The translations under genes and the position numbers were made by a program. 40,566 nt of DNA from Deltaproteobacteria bacterium (GTDB lineage Bacteria; UBA10199; JACPAL01): NCBI GenBank assembly GCA_016180855.1, contig JACPAL010000005.1, forward strand, positions 116,905 to 157,470, given 5' to 3'. The notes under the pieces are model-generated. The model was not told the DNA's origin. It did not search any database and worked only from the letters and a program-made list of their open reading frames with translations. This document shows, piece after piece, positions 21,674 through 30,604 of the stretch (within the stretch, counting starts at the first letter, position 1; each line of letters opens with the position of its first letter).

Positions 21674-22921
21674 TTATGGCAAGTGGCTCCCGAGGTCCGG
21701 ATTTCGCTGGAGCGCTTGCTGATAATACTGTTCGTAAAGGGCCTGATTCCCCATCTCTTTCTCCGCCAACGCTTTAAAGTAATACGCCTCGGCATTGTCA
21801 GGGTCGGCCACAAGGGCGTGGTCAGACGCCTTTGCAGCCTCTTCAAACCGGCCTGATTTTAAATAAGCCTCGCCAAGATTGCTGTGAACAACGCTTTCCG
21901 TTGGATTGGATTCTGCCAACTGTCTCCAAAGGTCAATCGCCTGCTCCGTCCTCCCTGTCTGGAGATAGACCGCTGCTAAACCGTTTTGGGCCTCCAAGTT
22001 TTCAGGGATTTGTTGAAGAAGGTCCTGATAATGCTGCTCGGCAACCGCTGGATTTGTTTTTTTGTCAAAGGTGTAAAGTTCAGCGAGATTGAACTTGGAA
22101 TCAAGGTGGTCCGGATTAACCGACAGGTTGTACTGAAAATATTTCTCGGCCTTGTTAAAATCGCCTTGGGCCGACTGGAGGATTCCCATCCCAAAAAGGG
22201 CCTCGGGGTCCTTGGGGTCTTTTTCGAGTTGTTGCTCGAAGAGAGATTTTGCCTCTTCAAAATTTTTGTTCTCAATCAGGGCAAGGCCAAGATCGGTGGC
22301 TAAAGCCGGATTACCCGGATTTTTATTAACCGCTTCTTTCAAAAAATCGATTGTTGCCTCTGGGCCATTAAGATTCATCATCTCTTCTGCCAGGAGACGA
22401 TAGATCTCTGTTTTTTGTGCCGCATTTTCTAGTCTGGCTGTCTGATCCAGGATCAACTCCTGGGCTTCATTGGCCCTCCCTTGTTTTTGGAGGTTATTGA
22501 CAAGACGCCAAAGGATCTCTCTGTTGGATTCATCGATATCCAGGAGCCGGCGCCAGACTTCGAAGGCAACTTTCTCCTGTTGATTCTCTTCAAGCCAGGT
22601 ACCGATCGCAAGCAACTGAGAATAATCCTCCGGCGCGACCTCCAGGAGCCAGTGTTCAAGAAAGTCGATTGCACGCCCAGTGTTCTCCGTGGCCAATTTA
22701 AAAAACTTTGCCCCCTTGCTGGATGACTCCGGATTGGGAGGGGAGGGGAGAGATTGATTGATTTCCGAGGGATTGAGACCGTCTGTTTCTGATTTGTAAG
22801 ATTCAATCCTTCTGGCTGAAGGACTTTTTCGGATCGACTTTGAATATCTAAGCCGTTCCCGATTTTTTTGAGAGAATTGATGATCGATCAGAAAATAGAC
22901 CAAAAACAGCGTGAGCCCCAA
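21674..22921 (-). CDS. Membrane-anchored tetratricopeptide-repeat protein
   Basis: 415 residues. A short hydrophobic N-terminus (GLTLFLVYFLI) probably anchors it, with a Ser/Pro/Lys-rich linker to about residue 75. Then come repeated 34-residue TPR helices, for example GNPALATDLGLALIENKNFEEA, DPEALFGMGILQSAQGDFNKA, ESVVHSNLGEAYLKSGRFEEA and DPDNAEAYYFKALAEKEMGN. TPRs mediate protein-protein contacts. The first possible start is TTG, directly after an in-frame stop and without a good ribosome binding site, so the true start may be internal. It is likely co-transcribed with the acyltransferase gene 30 bp downstream. Confidence 0.8.
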   Translation of the reverse strand: MGLTLFLVYFLIDHQFSQKNRERLRYSKSIRKSPSARRIESYKSETDGLNPSEINQSLPSPPNPESSSKGAKFFKLATENTGRAIDFLEHWLLEVAPEDYSQLLAIGTWLEENQQEKVAFEVWRRLLDIDESNREILWRLVNNLQKQGRANEAQELILDQTARLENAAQKTEIYRLLAEEMMNLNGPEATIDFLKEAVNKNPGNPALATDLGLALIENKNFEEAKSLFEQQLEKDPKDPEALFGMGILQSAQGDFNKAEKYFQYNLSVNPDHLDSKFNLAELYTFDKKTNPAVAEQHYQDLLQQIPENLEAQNGLAAVYLQTGRTEQAIDLWRQLAESNPTESVVHSNLGEAYLKSGRFEEAAKASDHALVADPDNAEAYYFKALAEKEMGNQALYEQYYQQALQRNPDLGSHLP

Positions 22922-23060
22922 GAGTTAAAGAGGATCGGTCTTTTCTGTCAGATCTTTCATGAATGACACACAGATTTTTAAACCTTGCTGAATGCACATC
23001 AATTATGGTTGATCAGCTTTTGGTTAGTATATTTTTGTTGATAAACCATTAAGTATTTCT

Positions 23061-23096
23061 AACTTTTAGCGGGTACAGTCGTATCCGCTAAAAGTT
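23061..23096. promoter_or_regulatory. Perfect 16-bp-arm inverted repeat at the start of the GNAT gene
   Basis: AACTTTTAGCGGGTAC, loop AGTC, then GTATCCGCTAAAAGTT: all 16 positions pair, counting one G-T wobble. There is no following T tract on either strand, so it is not a standard terminator. It covers the TTG at 23095 and would hide it in RNA. It could be an operator or a translation-control hairpin. Confidence 0.6.
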
Positions 23097-23619
23097 GAAA
23101 TGCTATATTGATAGTCTTGGTTTGAGGGGAGGACGGCATCTGTCACAAAAAAGAGTTTCTATACGACACACAACAAGGCAGGACTTTAAAGCGATAAAAC
23201 GACTTCTGGAGATCTCTTTTGCCGATCAAAGGCAGATTTATCGACCGAGCTCCAAAGCTGTTGCAAGAACAGCCAAAAGAATGCCCCGGTTTACCTATGT
23301 GGTGGCGATTTTCAGACAAACAATCGTAGGAACCGCCGCCTATTTTCTGACCAAAAAAAAGATTCATATTAGTCAGTGGGCCACCCATCCTCAGTGGCAA
23401 CGGAGGGGAATTGCCACTCAGCTTGTTGATCATCTTGAAGAGATTGCTATTCAAGCAAAAGTATCTTTAATGACTCTTTGGACAGTTGAGGAGTCAGGGA
23501 ATGTTCCTATTTTTGAACGACTTGGTTTTAAATCGGTGGAGAAAAAGGTTTCAGATATTTTTCAGTCAACTAAGGGTGATTTGATTCATGAGGTTTTGAT
23601 GGTTAAGTCCATTCCCTAG
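23095..23619 (+). CDS. GNAT-family N-acetyltransferase
   Basis: 174 residues at most. The GNAT fold is visible: VSIRHTTRQDFKAIKRLLEIS (alpha1), FTYVVAIFRQTIVGTAAYFLT (beta2-4), HISQWATHPQWQRRGIATQLVDHL (the acetyl-CoA loop, QRRGIA), then a C-terminal VPIFERLGFKS. It transfers an acetyl group from acetyl-CoA to an amine; the target is unknown. The start is unclear. The first in-frame codon is TTG inside a hairpin arm; a CTG at 23140 sits 7 nt after GGGGAGG and is an attractive alternative. It ends 62 bp before the first repeat-peptide gene on the same strand, so it could act on that peptide, but this is only proximity. Confidence 0.8.
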   Translation: MKCYIDSLGLRGGRHLSQKRVSIRHTTRQDFKAIKRLLEISFADQRQIYRPSSKAVARTAKRMPRFTYVVAIFRQTIVGTAAYFLTKKKIHISQWATHPQWQRRGIATQLVDHLEEIAIQAKVSLMTLWTVEESGNVPIFERLGFKSVEKKVSDIFQSTKGDLIHEVLMVKSIP

Positions 23620-23630
23620 GGAAAATTACA

Positions 23631-23658
23631 TTGCCTTGTCTATTTCATCTGATACAAT
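23631..23658 (+). promoter_or_regulatory. Sigma-70-type promoter for the first repeat-peptide gene
   Basis: TTGCCT (23631-23636), 16-bp spacer, TACAAT (23653-23658), then an excellent ribosome binding site AAGGAGG at 23671-23677 before the ATG at 23682. The hexamers and spacing are close to consensus. It lies between the GNAT stop and the short gene. Confidence 0.5.
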
Positions 23659-23681
23659 AGAACGACCATAAAGGAGGATCC

Positions 23682-23858
23682 ATGGCAGAGCGTATCCGAA
23701 GAAGTTCAAAGAGTGGTAGTCGAGGTGGTTCCCATGAGTATGTGCGGGGTGGGTCTCATGAGTACGTTCGGGGGAGATCCCATGAATATGTTAGGGGGAG
23801 GTCCCATGAGTATGTGAGATCAACCCAGTCAGGTAGGGTTAATAAAAAGAGAAATTAA
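23682..23858 (+). CDS. Repeat-peptide gene 1: candidate RiPP precursor with four SHEYVR units
   Basis: 58-residue basic peptide with an ideal ribosome binding site (AAGGAGG, 4 nt before the ATG). Residues 1-14 are a Ser/Arg/Lys-rich leader. Residues 15-46 are four tandem 8-residue units G[GR]SHEYVR, followed by a 12-residue basic tail. Across the four 24-nt copies the codons for Glu, Tyr, Val and Arg vary (GAG/GAA, TAT/TAC, GTG/GTT, CGG/AGG/AGA) while the amino acids stay fixed, so selection acts on the peptide. It ends 7 bp from the stop of the convergent radical SAM-methyltransferase. Leader plus repeated core next to a SPASM enzyme is the layout of radical-SAM RiPP precursors. Tyr-Val-Arg would suit an aromatic-to-side-chain crosslink, which is inference. 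Confidence 0.75.
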   Translation: MAERIRRSSKSGSRGGSHEYVRGGSHEYVRGRSHEYVRGRSHEYVRSTQSGRVNKKRN

Positions 23859-23865
23859 TTCATAT

Positions 23866-25686
23866 TTATTTTATTTCTGAATGAGATAGACCTACTCGAA
23901 AAGGGAGTGGGTTTGGTCTGTGGCGTGTAGCAGAGAGCTGCAACCTCCGGTTTTTATCAAAGTCAATCACCCTAATATCTTCATAGCCAACGGTCCGAAG
24001 CAATTCGAGTAATGTCAAACGACTTGGATTATTCCAAACGAATCCATCCCTCGAATCGCCGACAAACTCATCGGCACCTGTTTGTAAATAACTTGTCTGT
24101 GTTTCAAGAAGGCACTTGCCCCCATCTTTAAGGCAGTTATAGGTGATCCGTAAAGCAACAATCATATCAGAAAGATGACTGAGTACCCCGCAAAAATAAA
24201 CGACATCATATTTTCCCTCCATTGCCTCTTTAAGATCGTAGATGGAGGCGCCTTTTAAAGAGATTTTAAGATCAAACTGGTTTGCTAAGTAGCGAAGGGT
24301 TTCTCGATAAAGGGAAGACTCTTCACAGACATCGACACAAGCTCCCAATTTGGCAAGCAAGAGAGGCTCTTTGCCAAGGCCTGGCCCAATATCAAGTATA
24401 TTGAGACCACTCAAATTTAATGAGATTTCACCAGAACGAATCCAACTTTTTAATATATTGAGATCTCTCCGGCCCAGAGGGCCGTCTATTGAAAGGTCCT
24501 TGCCAAAATCGAAATTGTGGAACCAACGTGCGGTGCTAGAAGGCTCTTTTGATATTTTATCGAGATGCTTTGCTGTATCAAGAAACCATCTCTCAAATTC
24601 GAGAGGTGATTTCGCGTTAGAAGCCGTTAACTCTTCCAGGATTTTTTTGAGATGAGAATTGATCGATTCTTGATTGATAACTGATTTTACTTTGGGGCAG
24701 AGGGGATCTGATCCAAGAAATCCTGTTTCGACGCTGGAGCGACAACGGCACCCACCGCATTGATGGTTAAACTCACAAGATCCACAGGCTCCTTGGATTC
24801 CTCCCTCAGGTTCTCTCTCCAGAATACATTGAAGCCGTCTGTCTTCTGCTACCACCTCACGTAGCCTTGGTCCCAACACTTCGATGTTTCCAAGAGAGGC
24901 ATCACAACTTGTACAAAGAAGAACCGTGCCATTACACTGAATGTGAAGTGATGAACCACCTGCTCCGCAGGTCTTGATTTTGTCTTCCTCCTCGATCAGA
25001 GAAACATCAAAAATATGTGCTAGGGGGTCTGTGAAACTTACCGACATCTCAGGTTCGAAATCCCTTTTTGCTAAAAGGAATTGCCTTCCCACCTCCACAA
25101 ATACACTAGATACATTGTTGATTGGCTTACCCCTCCCCTGGGGTTTAACAAGTGCAACACTAATGTCTCGTGCTCCCAAATCATAAGCCAATGCACAGGT
25201 TTGGTATGCAGAGAGATAATTCTTTTCGTTGACAGTCATGTTGATAAAAAAGGGAATGTCAATCTCTCCAATAAATTTTATGAACTGTATCGTTTTTTGA
25301 AAGGCTCCCGGAAGTTCTCGGATGCGATCATGTATCTCAGCCGACGGGCCATCAAGAGATACCATAAAATGACAGCAATCGAGACTACGAATTTTTTCCA
25401 GTAGAGCAGGATTTAAGACTGTCCCATTGGTTGTTATTGAGGACCTTGATCCTTGCTCCTTAATAGTCTCCAAAAATTGTAGAAGTTGATTGTGCAAAAA
25501 AGGCTCACCTCCTGTGAGAGCAATTTGGGATAGAGACGGAAAAGCCCCTTTTACAACATCGATTCGTTTCCTAAACTGATCAAGGGAGAGCTTTCCTTTA
25601 AGATCGCGTCGGGCGTTCCTGACGCAAAAATCACAATAAAGATTACACTTCTCTATAATCTCCATGGCGATCAGATCAACAATCAT
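23866..25686 (-). CDS. Radical SAM/SPASM peptide-modifying enzyme fused to a C-terminal methyltransferase
   Basis: 606 residues. The radical SAM core has the CxxxCxxC cluster CNLYCDFC (Cys14/18/21), TGGEPF and SLDGPSAEIHDRIR. A SPASM-type region at about 240-330 has Cys at 240, 251, 258, 261, 301, 304, 310, 313, 315 and 330, enough for two auxiliary 4Fe-4S clusters. Residues about 427-585 form a class I SAM methyltransferase (LDIGPGLGKE motif I; WNNPSRLTLLELLRTVGYEDIRVID recalls CmoB-like enzymes). SPASM enzymes usually modify ribosomal peptides, so with the convergent repeat peptide this is probably a two-step maturase: radical modification and methylation. The start is ATG at 25686 without a clear ribosome binding site. 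Confidence 0.88.
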   Translation of the reverse strand: MIVDLIAMEIIEKCNLYCDFCVRNARRDLKGKLSLDQFRKRIDVVKGAFPSLSQIALTGGEPFLHNQLLQFLETIKEQGSRSSITTNGTVLNPALLEKIRSLDCCHFMVSLDGPSAEIHDRIRELPGAFQKTIQFIKFIGEIDIPFFINMTVNEKNYLSAYQTCALAYDLGARDISVALVKPQGRGKPINNVSSVFVEVGRQFLLAKRDFEPEMSVSFTDPLAHIFDVSLIEEEDKIKTCGAGGSSLHIQCNGTVLLCTSCDASLGNIEVLGPRLREVVAEDRRLQCILEREPEGGIQGACGSCEFNHQCGGCRCRSSVETGFLGSDPLCPKVKSVINQESINSHLKKILEELTASNAKSPLEFERWFLDTAKHLDKISKEPSSTARWFHNFDFGKDLSIDGPLGRRDLNILKSWIRSGEISLNLSGLNILDIGPGLGKEPLLLAKLGACVDVCEESSLYRETLRYLANQFDLKISLKGASIYDLKEAMEGKYDVVYFCGVLSHLSDMIVALRITYNCLKDGGKCLLETQTSYLQTGADEFVGDSRDGFVWNNPSRLTLLELLRTVGYEDIRVIDFDKNRRLQLSATRHRPNPLPFRVGLSHSEIK

Positions 25687-25777
25687 AAATGAAATTCCAT
25701 CGAGTATCGCCTTTGTTTAGAAAACTCATCCTATAGCATATCCTTTTTGCCGAGACTAGTTTTGCAGAGGAGCTCAG

Positions 25778-25808
25778 TATCAAAATGATAAAATTTATCA
25801 TTTTGATA
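25778..25808. promoter_or_regulatory. Perfect 15-bp-arm AT-rich palindrome in the divergent maturase promoter region
   Basis: TATCAAAATGATAAA is followed by one centre base and its exact complement TTTATCATTTTGATA. It sits 92 bp from the start of the radical SAM-methyltransferase gene and 130 bp upstream of the sigma-54 promoter of the second repeat peptide. A site for a dimeric regulator controlling both directions is the simplest reading. An outer 7-bp inverted repeat (TTGCCGA at 25747, TCGGCAA at 25836) encloses it. Confidence 0.55.
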
Positions 25809-25938
25809 GAAAAAATGTTTTTTTGTGAACTCTTTTCGGCAATGGTCTTTCGGTCTCTAATTTAAAATTGAAATTGTTATTCAAGTACTTATTCAACCAT
25901 TCTTTGTCTGCCACTGCCCACAAGCAACAATTGGGATT

Positions 25939-25955
25939 TTGGCATGATACTTGCA
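25939..25955 (+). promoter_or_regulatory. Sigma-54 (-24/-12) promoter of repeat-peptide gene 2
   Basis: TTGGCATGATACTTGCA fits the sigma-54 consensus (YTGGCACGRNNNTTGCW) with one mismatch. GG at 25941-25942 and GC at 25953-25954 are separated by exactly 10 bp. The predicted start near 25966 leaves a short leader carrying AAGGAGG at 25972-25978 and the ATG at 25984. Sigma-54 promoters need an enhancer-binding activator. The palindrome at 25778-25808 is in the usual upstream range. Confidence 0.72.
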
Positions 25956-25983
25956 TTTCACTCTCACACACAAGGAGGTTGCC

Positions 25984-26160
25984 ATGAGCAAAAGAGCCAC
26001 CACATCCAGTAGTAAGAGAATCACAAGAAAAGATGTCTCCAGACCATCGGGAAAACTCTCTGATAACGTCCGAATTTGGTTCGCGAAGGGTGGAGAAAGG
26101 CCGGCGGAAAAGCTGTCAGATAATGTTCGGATCTGGTTTGCACGCGGAAAGAAGAAGTAA
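25984..26160 (+). CDS. Repeat-peptide gene 2: candidate RiPP precursor with two KLSDNVRIWFA[KR]G units
   Basis: 58 residues, the same length as repeat-peptide 1. ATG 25984 is chosen over an upstream TTG because AAGGAGG precedes it. The leader (1-19) is rich in Ser, Thr, Lys and Arg. Two 19-residue units follow (20-38 and 39-57), each RP..KLSDNVRIWFA[KR]G. In the shared 13 codons, ten differ synonymously, one is Lys to Arg, and only GAT and TGG are identical: strong purifying selection on the peptide. There is no Cys. The next gene, starting two bases after this stop, is a radical SAM/SPASM enzyme, the normal partner of such precursors. The core again places an aromatic residue two before a basic one (Phe-Ala-Arg/Lys), as in Tyr-Val-Arg of peptide 1. 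Confidence 0.8.
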   Translation: MSKRATTSSSKRITRKDVSRPSGKLSDNVRIWFAKGGERPAEKLSDNVRIWFARGKKK

Positions 26161-26161
26161 A

Positions 26162-27520
26162 TTGCATCCAAAAAAGAATACACTCTACGATCTCCAGAAG
26201 ATCGACTATGCACTTGCCCATGTGATATGGAAAATCACGCTGGGCTGTAATTTTCGCTGCATCCACTGTGGCTTCGCAGCGGGGAAGCGCGATCCCAACG
26301 AGTTAACCTTGGAGGAGGCCCTTGATGTTTGTGATCAGCTTAAGGAACTCCAAGCTGAAAACGTCGTTTTGACGGGAGGGGAGCCTCTCCTTAGAAAAGA
26401 TTGGCCCCTCTTGGCGAAACGACTCAGTTCCGGAACAGACCGCGTCGATAAGGTCCATATTGTTTCTAATGGATGGACGCACTCCGATCGAACCTATGAG
26501 CAGTTTCTCGATTCCGGTGTTTCTCAGCTAACCCTGAGCATCGATGGCAACCGCCAAGTACATGATCGGGTTAGGGGGCAAGGCTCTTTCGATCGCGTTG
26601 TCAATGCCATGAAGCTTGCCAACAAGTGGTCGTTTCCCTTTGGTGTCATCACTACAGTTCACAAGCTTAACCTACCCATTCTTGATGAGCTCTTTGCTAT
26701 TCTCTCCGAAAATCAGGTGGTCTTCTGGCAGCTTGAACTAGCCGACGGCGTCGGCTATATGGATGTTCATCGCGACTTCATGATCGCACCTTCTGATCTG
26801 GAGCTCTTGAGCAACAAGATGATCGAGTTTCTGGAGCGGTCTGATGGTAAGATGCAAGTGGTACCAGGCAATAACCTCGGTTATTTCACCGAGGAGGATC
26901 GCATCTTACGGGGCGACTACTTTGGAGGATGCTACACCGGTTGCTTCGCCGGAATTTTTGTTATGTCGATCGAACCAAACGGGGATATCAGGGGATGTCC
27001 TGTCCTTCCCAAGGAGTTTGGCGAAGGAAATGTCCGGAAACAACGAATTCGTGATATCTGGCTAGATAAGAACAAATTCAGTTACAACCGCCAATGGGAT
27101 GTTAATTCTCTATCCGGTTTTTGTGGTGGGTGTGAGCACAGCTTGACATGTCGAGGAGGCTGCATGGCCTCTCGGATCGGCGCGATTGGGGATCTTAGCC
27201 ATAACCTTTACTGTCTTTACCGCGTGAAGAAAGAAAAAGAGAATGGCCGAACTCTAGAACTCCCTTCTCATCCTGGACCGATGAATCCACGCCCCCAACT
27301 TGATCCCTATGCGGAGGCGGTTTTTCTGAAGGGACGAAACCCTGATAACGAACGCCAAACGCAAGAACTCTCCAGTCAATTCTCACCGGTCGCTTCTCCC
27401 CAAAAGATACTTGAGATTAACAAAGGTCAGATGGCTGTTGCCACAACAATGATTCGTCGAGAAGTCAATGAAAATGGGGTTCCATCAACATCACCAAAAA
27501 CAGCCTCAATGCGGAAGTGA
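26162..27520 (+). CDS. Radical SAM/SPASM peptide maturase
   Basis: 452 residues from the TTG at 26162, chosen because it immediately follows the peptide 2 stop and has a GAAGAAG stretch upstream. An ATG at 26123, inside the peptide gene in another frame, is the alternative. The CxxxCxxC motif is CNFRCIHC (Cys29/33/36), followed by LTGGEPLLRKDW and LSIDGNRQVHDRVRG. The SPASM region has GGCYTGCFAG, RGCPVLP, FCGGCEHSLTCRGGCMA and a final YCLYR. It then continues about 75 residues in a Pro/Asn-rich tail. SPASM proteins install thioether, C-C or ether crosslinks or epimerise RiPP cores; without Cys in the precursor, thioethers are excluded. Its last 94 bp overlap the convergent methyltransferase gene. 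Confidence 0.9.
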   Translation: MHPKKNTLYDLQKIDYALAHVIWKITLGCNFRCIHCGFAAGKRDPNELTLEEALDVCDQLKELQAENVVLTGGEPLLRKDWPLLAKRLSSGTDRVDKVHIVSNGWTHSDRTYEQFLDSGVSQLTLSIDGNRQVHDRVRGQGSFDRVVNAMKLANKWSFPFGVITTVHKLNLPILDELFAILSENQVVFWQLELADGVGYMDVHRDFMIAPSDLELLSNKMIEFLERSDGKMQVVPGNNLGYFTEEDRILRGDYFGGCYTGCFAGIFVMSIEPNGDIRGCPVLPKEFGEGNVRKQRIRDIWLDKNKFSYNRQWDVNSLSGFCGGCEHSLTCRGGCMASRIGAIGDLSHNLYCLYRVKKEKENGRTLELPSHPGPMNPRPQLDPYAEAVFLKGRNPDNERQTQELSSQFSPVASPQKILEINKGQMAVATTMIRREVNENGVPSTSPKTASMRK

Positions 27521-28167
27521 TTCTCATGAAGAAGTCTATCGATTTCAGGCCGGCGATAGGCTCGAAGTGCGACCTCCACCCTCTTTTCCAGGCGCCCCTT
27601 TCTTTTAAAAATCCATTTTCCTAAGACACGATTGTTTTCCTCGTCCCATCTCTCCGATCGTTGCAGGATGAGATTCCCCCTTTTCATTCTGACGATTTTT
27701 CTCAAGTGGGTCTTTAACCAATCTCCGTTGACAATATCGAGATAAAGCCGCCCCCCCTTCCTCAGTGCTCGCCTCATTCCCTGAAGAACGACTTGATTCT
27801 CCCGGTCGTCAAAATAACCAAAAGAGGTAAAGATGCTGGTGACGGCATCAAACTTTTCAAAATAATCCAGCCGCCTCATATCACAGACGCGAAATCGTAT
27901 CCGACGGCCTCTCCCTTTCTTTTGAGCCCGCCAAATCAGTTGTGGTGCGATGTCAATTCCCGTCACATCATATCCCCGGGCGGCGATCTGGATGGCATGT
28001 TCCCCGCTTCCACACCCCACATCAAGGAACCGTCCGCCGGGGAAGATTCGAAGGTGCCTCAACACGAAGTCAACCTCACGATTAATGTCTGAAGAGGTTC
28101 GAGGTCGAAACCTCTGGTAAGCCCCTACGAACAGCCGCTTCCACCAAGGAACTGCGCCTATGCTCAT
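27427..28167 (-). CDS. SAM-dependent methyltransferase (class I)
   Basis: 246 residues from the ATG at 28167. Motif I is FLDVGCGSGEHA, with GIDIAPQLIWRAQ (acidic ribose-binding strand) and FDAVTSIFTSFGYFDD (motif IV region). The start is supported by an ATGA overlap with the stop of the small membrane protein gene; the frame could extend to a TTG at 28194. It is the last gene of the exporter operon and overlaps, antisense, the 3' end of the radical SAM maturase gene by 94 bp. Small-molecule or peptide methylation in the RiPP pathway is likely from context. No substrate-specific feature is visible. Confidence 0.85.
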   Translation of the reverse strand: MSIGAVPWWKRLFVGAYQRFRPRTSSDINREVDFVLRHLRIFPGGRFLDVGCGSGEHAIQIAARGYDVTGIDIAPQLIWRAQKKGRGRRIRFRVCDMRRLDYFEKFDAVTSIFTSFGYFDDRENQVVLQGMRRALRKGGRLYLDIVNGDWLKTHLRKIVRMKRGNLILQRSERWDEENNRVLGKWIFKRKGRLEKRVEVALRAYRRPEIDRLLHENHFRIEAVFGDVDGTPFSLTSRRIIVVATAI

Positions 28168-28385
28168 TGATGATTCCCCAACATTGCCTTCCAAATGGGA
28201 AGGGATTTTTTAGAGGGGACTCCTTTCTGGGAGGGGATTTTGAGATGAGCGGCGTTGATCAACAAAAAAAGAGTGATGACAATGGCTGTCAGAGTAGCCC
28301 ATGAAATTTTTTTGACCCGATTTTCCCAATTGCCCCGCAAAAGTTTATCGACGATTTTTTCAAAGTATGTTTCTAAACGATTCAT
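28164..28385 (-). CDS. Small single-pass membrane protein
   Basis: 73 residues with one TM helix (ISWATLTAIVITLFLLINAAHL, about 27-48), a charged N-terminus and a basic C-terminal tail. It overlaps both neighbours by ATGA: its start overlaps the stop of the ABC exporter, and its stop overlaps the start of the methyltransferase. This double coupling argues that it is a real gene and part of the same complex, perhaps an exporter accessory subunit. Not a recognised family. Confidence 0.7.
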   Translation of the reverse strand: MNRLETYFEKIVDKLLRGNWENRVKKISWATLTAIVITLFLLINAAHLKIPSQKGVPSKKSLPIWKAMLGNHQ

Positions 28386-30604
28386 AAAAAAACAGTCCCT
28401 TCCTGTTTGGTCGTTTGGGAAAGTAGGGAATCATCTGCCTTTTCTAAGAGGAGTTCAGGTAAAACAGGGTTCGATCCAAAGCTTGTGGCTGTCCCAAAAG
28501 AGAGAGACAAGGAAAAAGATTTTTGATCGAGAGGTATTTCCTCCTCTTTGAGTCGTTCTTGAATCCTCTTGCCAAATTGAATGGCCCCCTCAGTGTCAGT
28601 CTCTGGTAGTGCCACGACAATTCGGTTTTCTTGAAAGACCGATGAAAAATCCATGATTCTTAAGTAACGTCGGATAAAAAGATTCATCCTCTCCATCAGT
28701 CGAGCTAAATCTTTTGTTTCCAGAGTGTGTAACAAAGTAGCATATTCCTTTACCTCAAAGATCAAGGCCGACAAATCCTGCTTGTATCGTCGTGTTCTTT
28801 CGGTTTCCATGTTGAGTCGCTGAAAGAATTCCTCCAGACTGCTGAATTGAAGGGTGTAGAGAGTAAAAAAAACACCTTTCTTATCCATCAGTTCTTTGAA
28901 AGAACCTTGCTCAACGATCTCTCCTTTTTGGAGGGTGATAATTTGGTCAAAAGACCTCACAGATGACAGGCGATGCGCGACAAAAACGATGGTCATTCTT
29001 TTTTTACATCGGTGAATTGTTTCTTGAATAACAAATTCACTCTCGGCATCCAAGGCATTTGTCGCTTCGTCCAGAATGAGAATTTTTGGTTTATGAAGGA
29101 GGGCCCTGGCAATCGCAATCCGCTGTCTTTGGCCTCCGGACAGGCCTTGGCCGGCCTGTTCTAAAAATGTGTCATACCTGTTCGGGAGTCTTTCAATAAA
29201 ATCATGGGCCCCCGCCATTTTGGCTGCTTCGATTATTTCTGATTCTGTCGCTTGAGGGTTTCCATAGACAATATTTTCTCGGATCGTCCGTGAAAAGAGA
29301 GATATCTCCTGAAAAACGACACCGATCTTGTTTCTTAATAACTGAAGCTTGAGATCCTGGATACGGTGTCCGTTGATCAGAATAATCCCTTGAGAGGGGT
29401 CATAAAAACGGATCAGCAGATTAAAAAGGGTTGATTTTCCTGAACCGCTCTCTCCAACAATCGCCAGCGAAGAGTGGGGAGGGATTTGTAGAGTGAGGTT
29501 TTTAAGAATGGGGAAGGTTGGCTCATAAGAGAAAGAGACCTGTTTAAAGTCGATTGGCCCTTCCCCTGTCATAAAGCCTTCTTCTTGCTCCAGCGGGGTT
29601 TCAGATCGCTTTCTCTCCTCCTCCTTTATAAAAAGGTCATCTACGCGCCGCAGGGAGACGATACCTATCTTGAGTTGTGTATAAAGATTAGCCAACTGCC
29701 GAATTGGCTCCTCCATAAGGGGGAGATACCCTCCTAACGCAACCGCCTGACCGATCGAGAGCTTGCCTTGAATCACCTCATAACCGATGACCCAAAAGAC
29801 AGCTGTTCCCCAAACTTGTAGGGTGATCGAGTTGGTAAATGTTGAAATGATGGAGATAATCTTCTCTTTCAGTCCCAACCGGACCCGGCTAAACAGCAGA
29901 TGACTAAACTTGTGGGTCTCATCCTCTTCTCGGGAAAATGCCTTGATTGTCTTCAGATTCCCCAGTCGTTCCTGGAGCCCGTCGTAAATCGCTGAGTTTT
30001 TGAGTTGGATATCATTTTGAAGCTCACCGAGCCGACCGGCATAAAAGTGGGTTTCCAAGGCGTAAAGAGGCACGGCCGCCAAGGCGAGCAAGGATAAAAT
30101 GGGATCGATGAGCAAAACCAGGGTCAGGAAGAGGATCCATTGAAACGAGGAAGCAAAGAGGACAGACAGCGTATTGACGATCATGCCAGCAGCAAGATCG
30201 GTATCATCCATGATGCGAACAGTTAAATCACCCAAATTGCTCTTTGACTGGGAATGGACGGGAAGACGAAGGATTTTTCCAAGGAGTTTTGACGAGAGAC
30301 TCGCTGTGTATGTCTGATCGATATAGAGGTGGTTGTAATCGGTAGCCGAAGAGAAGAAAAATCGGACAAAATAGATTGCTAGTCCTGCTAGAAGGGTGGC
30401 GGTCAAGAGGGAGAGATTTCTCTGAACGTATGCGTAATCAAAGATCAGGATAGAGAGAAGAGGGGAAATCATCTCCAGAACAATCGAAAAAGCGTCTGAG
30501 AGGAAACTTACACTGAGCGGAAAAAAATACGGTCGGAGCTCTCGGGCGTATTTCCAGAACAGTTTGAGTTCGGAGGTGATGGGCATCACAGTTTCAAAGG
30601 CCAA
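28382..30604 (-). CDS. ABC exporter (TMD-NBD) with C-terminal degenerate GGDEF-like domain
   Basis: 740 residues. The N-terminal six-helix type I exporter domain is followed by an ATPase: Walker A GESGSGKST (384-392), Q-loop VFQE, signature LSGGQ (488-492), Walker B ILILDEATNALD and H-loop AHR. Residues about 595-735 resemble a GGDEF domain (ERTRRYKQDLSALIFEV, ALPETDTEGAIQFGKRIQERL, SLSLSFGTATS, LLEKADDSLL), but the GGDEF motif itself is replaced by VFQENR, so it is not a diguanylate cyclase. It could bind c-di-GMP or another nucleotide. There is no C39 peptidase domain. As the first gene of a coupled three-gene operon beside two peptide maturases, it probably exports the mature peptide. Confidence 0.88.
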   Translation of the reverse strand: MAFETVMPITSELKLFWKYARELRPYFFPLSVSFLSDAFSIVLEMISPLLSILIFDYAYVQRNLSLLTATLLAGLAIYFVRFFFSSATDYNHLYIDQTYTASLSSKLLGKILRLPVHSQSKSNLGDLTVRIMDDTDLAAGMIVNTLSVLFASSFQWILFLTLVLLIDPILSLLALAAVPLYALETHFYAGRLGELQNDIQLKNSAIYDGLQERLGNLKTIKAFSREEDETHKFSHLLFSRVRLGLKEKIISIISTFTNSITLQVWGTAVFWVIGYEVIQGKLSIGQAVALGGYLPLMEEPIRQLANLYTQLKIGIVSLRRVDDLFIKEEERKRSETPLEQEEGFMTGEGPIDFKQVSFSYEPTFPILKNLTLQIPPHSSLAIVGESGSGKSTLFNLLIRFYDPSQGIILINGHRIQDLKLQLLRNKIGVVFQEISLFSRTIRENIVYGNPQATESEIIEAAKMAGAHDFIERLPNRYDTFLEQAGQGLSGGQRQRIAIARALLHKPKILILDEATNALDAESEFVIQETIHRCKKRMTIVFVAHRLSSVRSFDQIITLQKGEIVEQGSFKELMDKKGVFFTLYTLQFSSLEEFFQRLNMETERTRRYKQDLSALIFEVKEYATLLHTLETKDLARLMERMNLFIRRYLRIMDFSSVFQENRIVVALPETDTEGAIQFGKRIQERLKEEEIPLDQKSFSLSLSFGTATSFGSNPVLPELLLEKADDSLLSQTTKQEGTVFL

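Follow-up and report, generated by a model that had tools for sequence, protein, structure and literature searches.

A 58-residue open reading frame with two head-to-tail copies of a 19-residue unit, here called precursor 2, and the radical SAM/SPASM gene directly behind it probably form a sigma-54-driven pair of two-core substrate and maturase, in which both copies would be modified alike. The best reading of this pair is an orphan RiPP-type system with one modification per copy near Trp-Phe. We have fair confidence in the substrate role, given the one-base spacing of the two genes, their shared sigma-54 promoter, and a parallel locus in which another duplicated core lies by a homologous maturase. 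Protein-level constraint on both copies, a strong Shine-Dalgarno sequence, and a complete set of enzyme cysteines also support the pair, as does a second repeat peptide that adjoins a second SPASM-like enzyme within the same island. Against it stands that we found no homologous precursor to show conservation or co-occurrence. In the window (the whole stretch of 40,566 nucleotides that was analysed), the locus has the following elements:

25778..25808, no strand: perfect 31-bp palindrome with two TATCANNNTGATA dyads, 131 bp above the promoter
25940..25955, + strand: sigma-54 promoter TGGCATGATACTTGCA (GG-N10-GC), 28 bp 5' of the precursor 2 ATG
25972..25978, + strand: Shine-Dalgarno sequence AAGGAGG, 5 bases 5' of the precursor 2 ATG
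25984..26160, + strand: precursor 2 open reading frame, 58 aa (MSKRATTSSSKRITRKDVS, two 19-residue units, and K)
25984..26040, + strand: putative precursor 2 leader, residues 1-19, assigned from the start of the repeat
26041..26097, + strand: core unit 1, RPSGKLSDNVRIWFAKGGE, residues 20-38
26098..26154, + strand: core unit 2, RPAEKLSDNVRIWFARGKK, residues 39-57
26162..27520, + strand: radical SAM/SPASM maturase, 452 aa, TTG start, with the full radical SAM and SPASM cysteine set

The duplicated core of precursor 2

The duplicated 19-residue unit described in an earlier note on this DNA is real, and its boundaries can be refined to residues 20-38 and 39-57, arranged head-to-tail with a period of 19. 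The repeat starts at Arg-Pro, four residues ahead of the core Lys, and the codons of these two residues (AGA/AGG and CCA/CCG) both differ silently between the copies. The peptide reads MSKRATTSSSKRITRKDVS-RPSGKLSDNVRIWFAKGGE-RPAEKLSDNVRIWFARGKK-K, with Lys as its final residue, and is very basic (Lys+Arg = 17). The AAGGAGG sequence reported ahead of it is present, and it does have the same length (58 residues) as precursor 1, a second peptide of the same island. The SPASM gene begins closer than had been stated, with one base and not two between the stop codon and the TTG at 26162, and the claimed likeness of the two leaders is one of composition alone; we rejected homology between them (shuffle P = 0.64). 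A short open reading frame with a conserved core is found here directly beside a radical SAM/SPASM gene, as in RiPP-type pairs. An antisense open reading frame (25893-26213) was rejected as coding, as the differences between the copies obey the frame of the + strand.

Our recount of the 13-codon core KLSDNVRIWFA[KR]G agrees with the earlier one: 10 of the 13 codons differ synonymously, one encodes Lys in one copy and Arg in the other, and GAT and TGG are unchanged. Over the full 19-codon units there are 12 silent differences, 2 identical codons, and 5 amino-acid differences. Base changes in the 13-residue core fall at codon positions 1, 2, and 3 in the numbers 1, 1, and 11, and of 200,000 simulated neutral cases, each given 13 base changes at random, none retained at least 12 residues; the purifying selection proposed for the duplicated core is borne out by this constraint at the protein level. 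The silent changes are exclusively in third positions, Leu, Ser, and Arg codons included, as expected if both copies descend by duplication. The earlier note also called the duplication old. At the 13 conserved non-Trp residues only one codon is identical, vs 4.4 expected at saturation (P = 0.028), and because identical codons are fewer than even full saturation predicts, the silent divergence gives no measure of the duplication's age. The silent sites of the two copies are saturated or actively diversified, and so neither support nor contradict "old". Rather than great age, the silent divergence may reflect selection against direct DNA repeats that recombine, which we put somewhat below an even chance. 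The deficit of identical codons argues for such codon diversification, as does a similarly diverged repeat in another genome (G149, see below), but the P value is modest and the four repeats of precursor 1, in the same island, are less diversified.

Searches for relatives of the peptide returned no homologue of precursor 2 in 46 genomes of the phylum or in the plasmids searched, and Pfam gave no family match. In 84,980 species genomes and IMG/VR, where NVRIWFA was sought with an exact degenerate pattern, no homologous precursor came to light: all matches were chance frames or large unrelated proteins. Nor did the core turn up in another short basic open reading frame of the collections searched.

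Among comparative evidence, the parallel in G149 (L190 3484-6363) argues most strongly for precursor 2 as a substrate. There, a 240-aa protein, whose tail carries YKGVDFS twice, is encoded directly ahead of two tandem SPASM maturases, homologous to the one in the window, at a distance of 5 bases. The two YKGVDFS copies differ silently at 5 of 7 codons, with no residue changed. Like ours, this locus has a short motif in two copies, with codons that have diverged silently, beside homologous SPASM genes; it differs in the size of the protein, in the two maturases, and in lying outside the phylum of the window's genome. A duplicated, silently diverged core by this kind of enzyme hence occurs twice, on unrelated substrates. 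These observations bear on the idea that precursor 2 is an unmodified small basic protein, e.g., one that binds nucleic acids, with the SPASM gene there only through the shared promoter. Its basicity, the want of a recognisable leader, and the failure to find homologues would suit such a protein, but we consider it improbable in view of the single base between the genes, the duplicated-core gene by homologous maturases in G149, and the second repeat peptide by a second SPASM-like enzyme of the same island.

Predicted sigma-54 control and the accessory island

The promoter TGGCATGATACTTGCA is the sole exact match to the sigma-54 consensus within the window. The genome has 9 such exact sites (vs 0 for a reversed-pattern control), one rpoN, and seven full sigma-54 activator domains. 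With its GG-N10-GC element, activator-like sites nearby, and rpoN and activators in the genome, the operon has the predicted features of sigma-54 dependence. Sigma-54 control of natural-product genes has reportedly been seen before. The TATCANNNTGATA dyads of the palindrome at 25778-25808 are 18 bp apart and probably represent the site of a putative enhancer-binding protein. With up to 3 mismatches allowed, the genome has three instances of this palindrome, all at most 165 bp from one of the 9 sigma-54 sites (chance ~4e-9). At C7 it lies above the promoter, as in the window, and at C5:59005 it lies downstream of the promoter, over a start codon; farther upstream of a fourth sigma-54 promoter there are two dyads of weaker match. 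The remaining promoters of the palindrome set precede exported-looking proteins. As judged from these patterns, promoter and palindrome argue independently for a real and inducible peptide gene. An enhancer-binding protein would bind the two dyads and switch on the promoter at 25940, so that peptide and SPASM enzyme would be produced together.

At the C5 locus (G000:C5, L044 4884-5819), promoter and palindrome stand ahead of a probable lipoprotein gene, which is followed by a gene for a 125-aa exported protein ending in CDDDCNWCCCDSNGQNCRCC. At the C7 locus (G000:C7, L045 2635-8045), they belong to the 679-aa member of a group of three large exported proteins encoded near one another; the C-termini of the three read GCGLIR, GCSLIR, and GGCSLVR and may represent a sorting tag.

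Both precursors lie between plsB and mutL, in a region with these further features:

21674..30604, no strand: accessory island between plsB and mutL, ~9 kb, none of its genes detected in three relatives
23682..23858, + strand: precursor 1, 58 aa, with four GSHEYVR-type units
23866..25686, - strand: 606-aa fusion of a radical SAM/SPASM-like enzyme and a class I methyltransferase
27427..28194, - strand: class I methyltransferase, 255 aa; the gene shares 94 bases with the 3' end of that for the maturase
28382..30604, - strand: ABC exporter with a C-terminal GGDEF-like domain, a candidate exporter

The gap between plsB and mutL measures 122 bp in G002 (same order), 1.5 kb in G004, and ~9 kb here, and in G001, of the same family, mutL lies 1.6 kb from a thiolase gene. 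None of the island genes was detected in these three relatives. The region is therefore best read, from gene order, as an accessory insertion; its G+C content is lower over 22.5-25.5 kb. We rejected a plasmid origin, since the plasmid matches are short ABC-transporter stretches only, and an annotation as anti-phage defence, for which there were only weak matches to parts of enzymes. Precursor 1 has a sigma-70-like promoter in front, and its units have only partly accumulated silent differences. The SPASM-methyltransferase fusion is tail to tail with precursor 1 and divergent from precursor 2; none of 145 other genomes has a relative of it at E <= 1e-40. The overlap of the convergent maturase and methyltransferase genes (27427-27520) falls in the non-conserved C-terminal extension of the maturase.

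The maturase and its clade

The maturase has the radical SAM cysteines 29, 33, and 36 and seven conserved SPASM cysteines, and its Pfam domains are Radical_SAM, SPASM, and Fer4_12 only. The RRE leader-binding domain is common in RiPP-type pairs, though not universal; it was detected neither in the maturase with Pfam nor in a 73-aa neighbour, for which no family was found. The enzyme reaches the cut-off of no named maturase family. Its best-scoring one is TIGR03913, the maturases of GDL/DUF1843 peptides, which have at least one short peptide directly upstream as here, but the score (198 bits vs a cut-off of 592) is below membership and precursor 2 has no GDL motif. The second, TIGR04103 (Nif11 maturase 3), is also below membership, with 189 bits vs a cut-off of 725. 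The known cyclophane-forming families are absent from the best 25 of its 88 NCBIfam matches (25th: E = 7e-16).

The maximum-likelihood tree places the maturase in a clade with PlpX-type spliceases and GDL enzymes (support 100/100). Its branch is long (1.54) and its exact place unsure; the grouping with the enzymes of G149 and Agathobacter is weak (fork 86/91). Small precursors accompany members of this clade: DUF1843 peptides, peptides with VPLYGVP in the relatives G341 and G312, and, at a Nostoc locus, a Nif11 peptide ending in ALYGLPPELF, an XYG core. The Nostoc locus supports equating TIGR04103 with the PlpX splicease class, which we assume here; to our knowledge, PlpX-type spliceases are the only characterised members of the clade. 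A pattern scan found no close relatives of the maturase (best identity 40%), and a single-sequence structure prediction was unusable (mean pLDDT 38). In G310 (L189 370-4426), a weak M50 peptidase match and a slipin-like protein are followed by a SPASM maturase 40% identical to that of the window; the C-terminal half of the slipin-like protein reads as a radical SAM/SPASM enzyme.

Candidate chemistries

The enzyme would change each KLSDNVRIWFA[KR]G identically, at or next to Trp-Phe and once per copy. The most likely chemistry, which we propose tentatively, would be a C-C crosslink that joins Phe or Trp to the Lys/Arg beta carbon, with -2 Da per copy. Other SPASM enzymes crosslink Phe, Trp, Tyr, and His to beta carbons two residues on, in Asn, Asp, Ser, Ala, and Arg, Trp-Arg, Tyr-Arg, and His-Arg links included (PMC11002830). 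Such i to i+2 crosslinks would fit FA[KR] in precursor 2 and YVR in precursor 1, aromatic-X-basic motifs with the geometry that is crosslinked in triceptides (XncB, OscB, MscB, YhhB; PMC11002830). Unlike in triceptides, the maturase lacks those families among its best 25 of 88 matches and the motif is not above chance: an enrichment of aromatic-X-basic motifs in the two precursors was rejected by comparison with shuffles. The -2 Da per core that the earlier note had suggested appears doubtful because the maturase falls in the PlpX-type clade and these motifs occur at chance frequency. This clade would point to splicing as much as to a crosslink, though the Tyr-Gly motif is missing in precursor 2. 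Since the motifs are unenriched and the clade points equally to splicing, we hold the substrate role fairly and the chemistry loosely.

PlpXY takes tyramine out of X-Tyr-Gly (PMC11002830; PMC10533398). Splicing of this type in each core copy would agree with the nearest characterised clade (by the TIGR04103 score, the tree, and the LYG peptides beside relatives), and at spliceotide PlpX/PlpY loci, as here, a small precursor adjoins a maturase of this 100/100 clade. It is nonetheless unlikely, because precursor 2 has neither Tyr nor a YG or XYG motif nor a Nif11 leader, a PlpY-like partner did not turn up, and the score is far from the TIGR04103 cut-off. We favour a crosslink over splicing for precursor 2. 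It seems very unlikely that a member of the splicease clade acts off Tyr-Gly, on demand under sigma-54, and cuts an arylethylamine from the Phe/Trp of both cores to leave two keto-beta-amino-acid residues. Each core could instead undergo another SPASM chemistry (for example, epimerisation, beta-hydroxylation, or linkage to Asp/Asn/Arg rather than Lys/Arg), which is possible if doubtful: the whole of SDNVRIWFA, beyond FA[KR], is kept between the copies and the chemistry of the clade is mostly uncharacterised, yet nothing specific speaks for any of these.

Repeated cores by a SPASM enzyme are also found in TvgA (TVGG repeats) and in the Tyr-Asn-Arg/His-Asn-Arg family, where the repeats are modified, or expected to be, many times (PMC9062424). 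Their core sequences are different and their units shorter than the 19 residues here, and the partner iron/2-oxoglutarate oxygenase of that group was not seen at the window locus. The modified product would probably be exported, and the island's ABC exporter (28382-30604) may be a putative route for it; no protease gene for release of the cores is evident.

Since other SPASM enzymes also have repeated cores next to them (TVGG, YNR/HNR; PMC9062424), the kind of system is not new. What appears new is precursor 2 itself, its placement in this maturase clade, and its predicted sigma-54 control. The locus brings a precursor type that has no known relative into a SPASM clade of which the chemistry is known in one branch only, and this one small two-gene operon could show if the clade goes beyond the splicing out of tyramine. 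Because the two cores differ in their codons, either site can be edited on its own, with the other copy as internal control, and the sigma-54 promoter with its shared palindrome offers a route to the signal that induces the peptide.
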